In this document: in pieces, positions 1 to 48,138 of the stretch
Layout: each line of letters begins with the position of its first letter
How positions within the stretch are numbered: position 1 is the stretch's first letter
Source of the DNA: Candidatus Saccharimonadota bacterium
Lineage (GTDB): Bacteria; Patescibacteriota; Saccharimonadia; Saccharimonadales; Saccharimonadaceae
Assembly (NCBI GenBank): GCA_027312225.1
Contig: DAICXK010000007.1
Location: 1 to 48,318 of the forward strand
DNA length: 48,318 nt
Reading direction: 5' to 3'
The notes under the pieces: generated by a model
The model's database searches: none
The model's input: only the letters and a program-made list of their open reading frames with translations
Told to the model about the DNA's origin: nothing
Program-made: the position numbers and the translations under genes

Positions 1-6
1 AGCCCC

Positions 7-1041
7 ATGAACTACTCGGAAAAAGAACATCAAACAGCAGTTGTTGAACTTATCGCCCCAGATGGACTAGGGTTCGGTGAAGGTGGTATTAGTGTCAAGT
101 CACAGATTGATCAAGGTATCTTGACACCTGACACGCCTCGTCATATTCATGAATTTCTCACCAACAACCCAGAGGCCTTCAAGCAGGTAGAGGTAGATGA
201 TGACGGCTGTGGTGATGGCCGTCCGTGGACCAAAATTATTCAGGAATACCGTGACGAAAACGGTCAAAAGAAAATCCAGCTTTTTGGTAAGTCAAAGCTT
301 CGGGCTAAGGTATTTGGCGGTGGCCTCGTCGCAGCGGCAAGTATGTGGCGTGCGATCCAGGGTGTACCGCAGGACGAACAAACAGTGGGCGGCGACCGCG
401 CATTCATGGCCGGCAAGCTTGCAGAGATAGGGTTCAGCCACGGTGCACACAGCGATGATCATGCTGAAGGAGAGAATTGTGGTTGCGGTGCAATTGACAA
501 ATATCCTGTTGTTACCGCGAATGCCATCAAATATCGTCCGCAAATCACAGGTGTGCTAGAAGCCTTGTACGGTGATGAGTTTGAAGACAACAAATCAGAG
601 ATCGAACAAGTATTCGGTGTGTATGAAGCACTTGCAGAGAGCAACGGCTACTTTGCCGATGCTAGTGGAAGGCGGTCGATGGAGCAGATTCTTGATTCTG
701 GAGCGGTTGTCAAAGAATTGGCGGGTCATCACATCGAAGAAACGATTGTTATTAATGACGTTGAGGGCACGACACTGGACCAGCAATTCTTTACTGAAAC
801 GGTTAAAAGTGCGGGTGGAGACGAACGACCACGAATCGTCCAGGCATTTTCTGTCGACGTGTGGCGAGGACGAGCTATTGCCGATAAGGTTGCCGAGGTG
901 GCCCAGGCGGAGGATCCGACTGCCGATGCCGACCATGCATGGAAGGTTGCCTACGCTGACTTTCTTGTTCGTACTCTTGCTGTGGCAGGAACGCTGACCG
1001 CCGGGGATTTGCCGGTCTACCGACGACGAACTGCCGAGTAG
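7..1041 (+). CDS. CDCA-like (cadmium/zinc carbonic anhydrase-fold) protein
   Basis: The 344-residue protein resembles the diatom cadmium carbonic anhydrase repeat, recalled from memory. It has a Cys followed by DGR (C68-G-D-G-R72), a glycine-rich segment (FGGGL, 103-107), a His cluster leading into CGCG (H145, H148, H152, C158, C160), and a late GHHIEETIVIN segment (240-250) like the GSHTEKVVYIN of CDCA. In CDCA the metal ligands are Cys, His and Cys. Here C68, H145 and C160 fall at comparable places, with about five extra residues before the last Cys. Whether it hydrates CO2 is inference. No signal peptide is seen, so it is probably cytosolic. The ATG at 7 lies so close to the window edge that upstream signals cannot be judged. 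Confidence 0.6.
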   Translation: MNYSEKEHQTAVVELIAPDGLGFGEGGISVKSQIDQGILTPDTPRHIHEFLTNNPEAFKQVEVDDDGCGDGRPWTKIIQEYRDENGQKKIQLFGKSKLRAKVFGGGLVAAASMWRAIQGVPQDEQTVGGDRAFMAGKLAEIGFSHGAHSDDHAEGENCGCGAIDKYPVVTANAIKYRPQITGVLEALYGDEFEDNKSEIEQVFGVYEALAESNGYFADASGRRSMEQILDSGAVVKELAGHHIEETIVINDVEGTTLDQQFFTETVKSAGGDERPRIVQAFSVDVWRGRAIADKVAEVAQAEDPTADADHAWKVAYADFLVRTLAVAGTLTAGDLPVYRRRTAE

Positions 1042-1045
1042 AGGG

Positions 1046-1060
1046 TATACTAGGGATATG
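1046..1060 (+). promoter_or_regulatory. -10 box abutting a leaderless start
   Basis: TATACT at 1046-1051 is followed by six bases and then ATG at 1058. A transcript starting about seven bases after the box would begin at the start codon. The GGG at 1053-1055 is too close to the ATG to act as a Shine-Dalgarno site. Confidence 0.6.
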
Positions 1061-1747
1061 GTAAAAAAGAAGCCATTACCACCGATTCATGCCCGTATCT
1101 CGCCGTTTACAGTGCTAGGCCTCAGTGTCGTCACGGTTGGCCTGTATTCGTATATATGGACAGCTCGCCGATATAAAGAGGTAGATGACGATGCTGGATG
1201 GGCGAGCCACTGGCTAGTTCCAGCGTGCGTGATTCTTGCTGCCGTCCTGCTCAGTGTGGGCTTTACGACCGTCATTCCGTTTGTTGCCGACCCTTACCAG
1301 GCGGCAGTCGCGTCAGTATATGGCAACTACGCGCTATTAGGTAGTGTTCTGATATTTGGAACGTGGTGGATGGTACGTTACATGAGACGAATTGACCAAG
1401 AACAGCAAGTGTTACCGCTCGTCTTCATGTCATTTTTCTTTTCGCCACTAGCAATCTATTATCTACAAATGGAACTTAACGAGCGGTCAGATGGCAGCGG
1501 CGTACTGACGCGATGGCTTGCTGTTGTTACATCGTTGGTGCTTGGAGTAGGGGTATTCACTGCAATTTATACGCGTTTTCCTATTGATCATGAAATCATG
1601 ACGCTTGAGACCGAGTACCGACTGGCAAATGACTATATTTCATGCCATGAAGACCTCAGTGCCCGCTATCCTAACGATGAGGTTGGCGCGTATCAATATC
1701 AGGCGTACCTCGACGCATATGAAGATTGCGAAGCTATCGTTGAGTAA
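1058..1747 (+). CDS. Polytopic membrane protein, DUF4234-like N-terminus
   Basis: The 229-residue protein has about five hydrophobic spans (roughly 17-35, 52-76, 91-109, 117-136 and 150-171). The first, FTVLGLSVVTVGLYSYIW, resembles the start of DUF4234 proteins, which share a 'VTLGIYxxYW' type motif. The C-terminal 60 residues are hydrophilic, acidic and tyrosine-rich with two cysteines (about 196 and 224). No enzymatic motif is visible. It begins 16 bases after the preceding gene but has its own -10 box. Its function is unknown; a role in the cell envelope is only a guess from topology. Confidence 0.75.
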   Translation: MVKKKPLPPIHARISPFTVLGLSVVTVGLYSYIWTARRYKEVDDDAGWASHWLVPACVILAAVLLSVGFTTVIPFVADPYQAAVASVYGNYALLGSVLIFGTWWMVRYMRRIDQEQQVLPLVFMSFFFSPLAIYYLQMELNERSDGSGVLTRWLAVVTSLVLGVGVFTAIYTRFPIDHEIMTLETEYRLANDYISCHEDLSARYPNDEVGAYQYQAYLDAYEDCEAIVE

Positions 1748-1750
1748 CCT

Positions 1751-2170
1751 CTAGAGGTGCTGGCAATTATGACAGGTACCTTTGACTTCAAAGTGGTGTG
1801 AAGAAGGGGCAAAAGAATGCTTCTCGGCGAGCTGATGGATGAGACGCTCCATTTCATCCGACGTGATAACGGTAACAGCATCACACTTCTCGCATAACAA
1901 GTGGTGATGATGGGGCTTGAAAGGATCAGCAAGTTCGACAAATGGCGTCCAGCCGCGAATAAGGGTTGTCGTAATTCCAAGACGATCGAAGAGGTCAAGC
2001 GAGCGGTACACACTTGCACGGTTGACCGAAGGGGTTCGGGACGCAACTTCACCGTTCTTGAGGGGTCTATCGCTTTTAAGAAGAGTTTGAAAAATAGCAA
2101 GACGCGCAGTAGTAACGCTGATGCTACTATCACGTAGTATCTGTGTAAACTTTGCTATTTCCGATGCCAT
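1751..2170 (-). CDS. Fur-family metalloregulator
   Basis: With the start at 2168-2170 the protein has 139 residues, normal for the Fur/Zur/PerR family. It has an N-terminal winged helix (about 20-65, including the NRASVYRSLDLF recognition region), the histidine run HHHH at 87-90, and two CxxC pairs (C93/C96 and C133/C136) that form the structural zinc site in this family. A longer frame runs upstream to 2242, but it would span the promoter, so the internal ATG is preferred. The -10 box TATTAT ends 10 bases from this ATG, giving a near-leaderless message. The metal sensed cannot be told from sequence. It is divergent from a decayed ATPase gene that may once have been its target. Confidence 0.88.
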   Translation of the reverse strand: MASEIAKFTQILRDSSISVTTARLAIFQTLLKSDRPLKNGEVASRTPSVNRASVYRSLDLFDRLGITTTLIRGWTPFVELADPFKPHHHHLLCEKCDAVTVITSDEMERLIHQLAEKHSFAPSSHHFEVKGTCHNCQHL

Positions 2171-2240
2171 AGTAGTTGCAATAATAGCATTGATTGCGAC
2201 ATATTTGCAATAATGTAAGTATCCCCTGATAATACACTTC
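2171..2240. promoter_or_regulatory. Divergent promoters with repeated TTGCAA operator-like motifs
   Basis: On the + strand, TTGCAA (2205-2210) and GATAAT (2228-2233) are 17 bases apart and point at the decayed gene whose first codon is at 2241. On the - strand, TTGCAA, an 18-base spacer and TATTAT precede the fur gene. The core ATTGC-N9-GCAAT is an inverted repeat, and the 10-mer ATTATTGCAA occurs twice on the - strand with a 29-base period. Fur-family proteins bind such dyads and often autoregulate. Binding here is inferred. Confidence 0.5.
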
Positions 2241-2616
2241 ACGAAAATTGCATTTGTAGGAAAAGGCGGCAGTGTTGAGGCAATTTGCGGCGCTGGCTGA
2301 GAGTGCCGGGATGGCGGGCCGCGTCAAAGTTATTGCAAACAAGGTCGAGGACAACGACGATATTACGTATATAGAGCAAGTATTGCGACAGCCCGTCATT
2401 GCCTCAACTGCATACGATAAGATTTTGCGCGAACAGCGGCGCAACGGGGGGTATCCCTCTATAGCCCATAGTGCTAAAGCAGCCATGCAAGAAATCGAAC
2501 ATGATGAACGTGGCAGTGCTATCGATGCTAGCCACCACCTCCAAAAACTTCATGATCTACACCGTGCATTTGCAAGCCAGCAGTTCCCGATTGAGAAGTA
2601 TGGGGGGATACGTTAG
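2241..2616 (+). pseudogene. Remnant of a MinD/CooC-type P-loop ATPase
   Basis: From 2244 the sequence reads KIAFVGKGGS, the start of a deviant Walker A as in CooC/MinD ATPases. The codon before it is ACG, where an ATG would be expected. The P-loop is cut before its GKTT part. Coding then resumes one frame later (from 2272) with VLRQFAALAESAGMAG and a segment VKVIANKVEDNDDITYIEQV, typical of the C-terminal half of CooC-like proteins, and ends at 2616. The middle of the protein is missing. Start loss, internal deletion and frameshift together indicate a dead gene. The 114-residue open frame alone should not be annotated as a functional protein. The intact promoter in front suggests recent decay. 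CooC inserts nickel in CO dehydrogenase; the original role here is unknown. Confidence 0.7.
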
Positions 2617-47538: not shown

Positions 47539-48138
47539 GTGCTAGGCGTATTCATCCTCCAAGCCATCGGGTTGTTCATCGCTACAAATATCGATGATAT
47601 CATCGTGCTGTCGCTATTCTTTGCTCGTGGCGCGGGCCGCTCCGGCACAACCGCCAAAATCATTGCCGGGCAATATCTCGGTTTTGGCGCAATTCTGGCC
47701 GCAGCGATTATCCTGGCACTAGGAGCCCGCAGCTTTCTGCCAGAGAGCTTCATTCCTTACTTTGGCCTCATTCCACTAGCCCTTGGGCTCCGAGCCGCTT
47801 GGCAGAGCTGGCGTGGCCAAGATGACGACGATGACGACGAACAGGCCACCGGCAAGCCGATCAGCGTAATGACGGTTGCTGCAGTCACTTTCGCCAACGG
47901 TGGCGATAACATCGGTGTCTACGTGCCAATCTTCATCACTGTTGGGACTATGGGCATTATCGCTTACTCAGGTGTATTTCTACTACTAGTGGTTGGCCTG
48001 GTACTTGTCGCCCGTTACGTCGCCACACGTAAGTCAATAGCAGCCATACTCGAGCGCTGGGAGCACGTGCTCTTCCCACTCGTTCTTATTAGCCTTGGCA
48101 CCTTCATCCTCGTTGAGGGTGGTGCCTTCGGGTTGTAA
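47539..48138 (+). CDS. CadD-family cadmium resistance/cation transporter
   Basis: The 199-residue protein has about five to six spans and the CadD signature pair: ATNIDDIIVLSLFFARG near the N-terminus and TFANGGDNIGVYVPIFI after a central hydrophilic loop. The loop carries a striking acidic run (DDDDDDE, about 94-100). CadD proteins confer cadmium resistance in staphylococci; the natural cargo is uncertain. The start is GTG at 47539 with GGGAGAGG upstream. Confidence 0.88.
   Translation: MLGVFILQAIGLFIATNIDDIIVLSLFFARGAGRSGTTAKIIAGQYLGFGAILAAAIILALGARSFLPESFIPYFGLIPLALGLRAAWQSWRGQDDDDDDEQATGKPISVMTVAAVTFANGGDNIGVYVPIFITVGTMGIIAYSGVFLLLVVGLVLVARYVATRKSIAAILERWEHVLFPLVLISLGTFILVEGGAFGL

Follow-up and report, generated by a model that had tools for sequence, protein, structure and literature searches.

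The window analysed here, a stretch of 48,318 nucleotides, derives from a Candidatus Saccharimonadota genome of 760 kb that is 97% complete, and the nearest named relatives of its sequence are Candidatus Saccharibacteria MAGs, at 88% identity. At the very edge of the contig lies a gene of the CDCA (zeta-carbonic-anhydrase) family (Table 1), the open-frame translation of which, from the ATG at position 7 to the stop at 1041, yields a protein of 344 amino acids (P0001). In both congeners (loci L025 and L026) a putative ATG start lies 24 nt upstream of the position that aligns with the ATG of the window, with a purine-rich AAGGA stretch ahead of it; since the frame in the window is also open at the contig edge, the true start probably lies about 18 nt upstream of that edge, and some six N-terminal codons are likely to be missing from the window. 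Relative to the two congeners, dN is ~0.07-0.08 and dS ~0.8-1.7, the latter being near saturation, and this low dN against dS indicates that the gene is under strong purifying selection.

The immediate neighbours in the window are a downstream membrane protein gene and a convergent gene for a Fur-family regulator. The latter was considered as a fixed partner and rejected, as it adjoins the CDCA-like gene only in the window and in one congener and is absent in L025. At positions 2272-2616 there is a 114-aa ParA/MinD-like remnant, the counterpart of which in the congener L026 has 318 aa, pointing to an apparent internal loss. A CadD-family gene is found at the opposite end of the window.

Table 1. 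Genes of the window and motifs of the CDCA-like protein, with residue numbering from the ATG at position 7.
Feature	Position	Strand	Observation
CDCA-family (zeta-carbonic-anhydrase-like) gene	1..1041	+	frame open from contig base 1; first window ATG at 7
C68-G-D70-G-R72, predicted first metal ligand and Asp-Arg dyad (CDCA1 C263, D265, R267; CVDGR)	208..222	+	alignments
G104-G105, conserved Gly pair (CDCA1 MPGG)	316..321	+	69/71 each
H145, ligand named by the sequence-only reading	439..441	+	column not conserved
H148, predicted His ligand (CDCA1 H315)	448..450	+	71/71
C158, partly conserved	478-480	+	Cys in 25/71
C160, predicted second Cys ligand (CDCA1 C325)	484..486	+	71/71
H241-H242-x-E244...N250, second-lobe motif (CDCA1 GSHxEKVVYIN)	727..756	+	H242 66/71
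F281-x-x-D284-x-W286 (CDCA1 FIVDGW)	847..864	+	invariant in 21-row alignment
Membrane protein, weak DUF4234 similarity, downstream neighbour	1058..1747	+	adjoins CDCA-like gene in one congener only
Fur-family regulator, convergent	1751..2242	-	PF01475, E 2.3e-15
CadD-family gene	47539-48138		PF03596, E 9.8e-29

Against Pfam, P0001 has a single match above the curated cut-off, to PF18484 (CDCA; 33.1 versus 29.2 bits, E 5.6e-8), which spans profile positions 53-154 of 184 and leaves the C68 motif outside. Each of the first 21 homologues also matches PF18484, at E<=1; several distant homologues in the ATP-synthase gene slot described below fall under the cut-off or have no match. A phmmer search of the PDB with the single P0001 sequence gave no match. 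The profile built from the 21 homologues (A1) retrieved the three CDCA1 repeat sequences from the PDB at E values between 1.8e-6 and 3.4e-5; besides CDCA1 there was no match below E 0.5, the next, unrelated one standing at E 0.56. Likewise, an AlphaFold2 model of P0001 computed with A1 (pLDDT 91.2, pTM 0.91) matched six CDCA1 chains in the PDB by Foldseek (probability 1.00, E 4e-6 to 1e-4), with no other confident match (next E 0.27, probability 0.10), and a viral structure library gave no fold match for the CDCA-like protein. The sequence-only reading had proposed that a CPR bacterium, here a member of the Saccharibacteria, encodes an enzyme with one repeat of the CDCA fold, and had suggested a CDCA-family profile search and a comparison of the predicted structure with CDCA1; the single-repeat fold is now backed by the Pfam, PDB-profile and fold searches alike, and with the ligands and the Asp-Arg dyad kept the protein is a putative enzyme.

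The predicted fold of P0001 is shared with CDCA1, the zeta-carbonic anhydrase of Thalassiosira weissflogii (PDB 3BOB, 3BOH, 3UK8, 7BEZ), at a sequence identity of only ~14-17%. The TM-score of the superposition is ~0.55 by CDCA1 length and 0.35 by query, with an rmsd of ~10 Å and large gaps, so that much of the 344-aa protein lies outside the shared CDCA core. Whereas CDCA1 comprises three repeats of ~210 aa each, P0001 is a single domain without the tandem repeats, a CDCA1 feature that is not required by the PF18484 repeat model; P0001 is furthermore bacterial, from an organism without photosynthesis. With the beta-carbonic anhydrases (PF00484) it has in common a C-x-D-x-R motif and a predicted His/Cys metal-site chemistry, but the PF00484 profile matches neither P0001 nor, at E<=0.001, anything else in its own genome (~97% complete), and no beta-carbonic anhydrase appears among the Foldseek results for the model.

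The metal ligands of CDCA1 are C263, H315 and C325 (x, x+52, x+62), and its Asp-Arg dyad starts from D265 (PMC6158936). Counterparts of the C-H-C ligands and of the dyad are aligned in P0001 as putative site residues, in the same motif order as in CDCA1: C-x-D-G-R, Gly-Gly, His, Cys, His-x-Glu, Asn and F-x-x-D-x-W. Among 71 homologues C68 is kept in all 71, D70 in 69 and R72 in 70, and H242, E244 and N250 are conserved in the A1 alignment. H148 aligns with the His of CDCA1 SVHGD, and C160 falls on the GCG of CDCA1, in both the profile and the phmmer alignments, from which the His correspondence was taken; when MAFFT added CDCA1-R2 automatically to the large alignment, it put the GHLP histidine in the His position, and this placement was rejected. 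The order of motifs given in the sequence-only reading (C68-G-D70-G-R72, H145, C158-G-C160-G and GHHIEETIVIN at 240-250) is present as described, but the conserved His is H148 and not, as claimed there, H145, the column of which holds F, P, I, Y or V in homologues; the predicted metal site must therefore be read from H148. Within the CGCG segment (158-161) conservation extends to C160 and not to C158. The spacing change proposed before the last Cys is real, although it had been counted from the wrong His: the distance from His to Cys is +12 versus +10 in CDCA1, and that from the first Cys to the His differs as well (+80 versus +52), which places the putative ligands of P0001 at x, x+80 and x+92.

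Across the family the His-to-Cys offset ranges from 3 to 25, and 45 of the 71 homologues share the value of 12. The exact CDCA1 spacing is found in L021, a distant 210-aa homologue from another patescibacterial family (C32, H84, C94; x, x+52, x+62), the model of which is less confident (pLDDT 69) and is matched by Foldseek to CDCA1 alone (TM ~0.57). Because the spacing varies in this way, x, x+52, x+62 is probably a feature of CDCA1 and not family-defining. The L021 gene (L187:5211-5843) is flanked by genes for an M50 peptidase and a nucleoside deoxyribosyltransferase-like protein. Two distant homologues in the ATP-synthase slot (L162:2646-3536 and L179:3055-3924), which match A1 and no Pfam family, combine C-x-D-E-R with H-x2-C, the ligand pattern of beta-carbonic anhydrases.

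The A1 profile has matches in 97 of 295 genomes of the order of the window; in a sample of 380 genomes spanning the phylum it matches 10, which mostly belong to the order. A further profile (A2) matches 14 of 280 genomes in the class of genome G294. None was found in 14 control genomes outside Patescibacteria, in viral contigs, or by tblastn in phages and plasmids, and a phage or plasmid origin was rejected on the absence of these matches and of any viral fold match.

In the relatives, the CDCA-like gene lies on the same strand as, and downstream of, atpA-atpG-atpD-atpC, with atpC within 3 kb upstream in 51 of the 68 loci analysed. When only loci picked by homology are counted, 49 of 66 have the gene directly downstream of atpC on the same strand, with gaps down to 8 bp; L158 and L162, found only via the atpC locus, were left out of this count to avoid bias, and three of the loci without an upstream atpC are cut by contig ends. 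A MIP/aquaporin-family gene (PF00230) directly follows the CDCA-like gene in 30 loci and is followed in turn by genes that, from a reading of the sequences, we take to encode a UvrD-like helicase and a dihydrouridine synthase (Dus). Most Saccharimonadales genomes with a CDCA-like gene have it in the slot between atpC and the Dus/UvrD pair, a fixed position that recurs in L064-L083, L114-L153 and others, and in genomes lacking the gene the order atpC-Dus-UvrD is kept, with the slot empty or occupied by an acyltransferase gene. Among 61 relatives the gene is present in 23 of the 47 with atpC and in 0 of the 14 without (Fisher p 5e-4, uncorrected for relatedness). Some loci carry further features: in L077, L081, L131 and L141 atpC is followed by two tandem CDCA-family genes, an arrangement that recalls the CDCA1 repeats, and in L069, L070, L083 and others opposite-strand ORFs of 108-145 aa separate atpC from the CDCA-like gene, three of these ORFs forming one family and the one that was checked having no Pfam match.

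In the genus of the window, the ATP-synthase locus is found elsewhere (G000:C16), its slot holding an acyltransferase gene, and the CDCA gene is surrounded by different genes. In the tree, the three-member clade of the window is nested in a set of mostly atp-linked genes, and hence the CDCA gene of this genus has probably moved. The linkage to the ATP-synthase genes is a strong positional fact, and it may be functional; but in genomes without the CDCA-like gene the slot often holds an acyltransferase gene or nothing, so that the linkage may instead be positional only.

In addition to beta-carbonic anhydrases, the searches of the own genome (~97% complete) found no alpha-carbonic anhydrase, no CPSase/biotin carboxylase and no PEP carboxylase, the same carbonic anhydrase and carboxylase searches giving matches in control genomes. 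The provision of bicarbonate to the searched carboxylases is thus an unlikely job for P0001, and, with the family usually found behind F1-ATPase genes, a role in proton/CO2 exchange becomes the likelier one. One clear beta-carbonic anhydrase was seen among the 61 relatives (G013:C29:6166-6582), in a genome that has neither atpC nor a CDCA-like gene. On balance, P0001 is probably a carbonic anhydrase of the CDCA type (zeta-class-like), made of a single domain and located in the cytosol. In such an enzyme a divalent metal, most likely Zn2+ (with Cd2+ possible), would be held by C68, H148, C160 and a water molecule, the D70-R72 dyad would position the water or hydroxide, and the conserved His-x-Glu/Asn lobe would shape the CO2 pocket for the reaction CO2 + H2O <-> HCO3- + H+. 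It would most likely help to balance protons and CO2 at the ATP synthase or ATPase, as opposed to supplying bicarbonate for biosynthesis, although this physiological role is the weakest step of the explanation and, taken by itself, is only tentative.

The main rival to a carbonic anhydrase is a CDCA-fold metalloprotein with a lost or changed reaction, its Zn site being used for a different hydration or a lyase step, to buffer metal or to regulate the ATP synthase. The highly variable His-to-Cys spacing, the D-G-R to D-E-R variants and the large family-specific additions are in keeping with such a change, as are the lack of the usual bicarbonate users in the own genome and the fact that most relatives live without any carbonic anhydrase of the searched families. 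Inactive carbonic anhydrase homologues usually lose their ligands. Here, however, the three predicted ligands and the Asp-Arg dyad, on which catalysis by zeta- and beta-carbonic anhydrases is known to depend, hardly vary among the 71 divergent sequences, and this retention counts against a changed reaction, which is accordingly judged a serious though improbable alternative.

Far less probable is a cadmium-handling or cadmium-resistance protein partnered with the CadD-like transporter, an idea suggested by the CadD-family gene in the same window and by the use of Cd by CDCA1. CDCA1 works with Zn too (PMC4413181). The two genes are >46 kb apart, the neighbourhoods of the relatives containing ATP-synthase and aquaporin genes instead; a CadD link was therefore rejected, in line with the sequence-only reading, which had mentioned the CadD-like gene without showing a link. 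That short motifs in an unrelated protein merely resemble CDCA by chance is the least credible of the alternatives: the empty single-protein phmmer search of the PDB and the reliance of the earlier reading on short motifs would allow for it, but it is already contradicted by a score above the curated cut-off and by the agreement of the profile with two independent fold searches.

Membership of the window protein in this family is already covered by Pfam automatic annotation. A search of the open-access literature found reviews that confine zeta-carbonic anhydrases to diatoms or marine phytoplankton, and no paper on bacterial members. What is new, and had escaped the sequence-only reading, is the observation that the CDCA-like gene usually stands behind the ATP-synthase operon in Saccharimonadales, often with an aquaporin gene next to it. 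A bolder extension, which is rather unlikely as a whole, is that these genes form a zeta-type carbonic anhydrase family that is old, mostly patescibacterial and proper to the ATP-synthase locus (atpC - CDCA - aquaporin), and that serves proton/CO2 exchange at the F1Fo complex of episymbionts. If this were true, diatom CDCA would descend from a prokaryotic family as its eukaryotic branch, and the H-x2-C members could be used to test a shared origin of zeta- and beta-carbonic anhydrases. The Cd-using enzyme has so far been a marine biochemical curiosity; a bacterial branch that keeps all of the predicted metal ligands, and that is placed next to the ATP synthase in very small bacteria that depend on a host and otherwise lack the searched carbonic anhydrases, offers a place to test both the origin of zeta-carbonic anhydrases and the use of CO2 and protons by Saccharibacteria.
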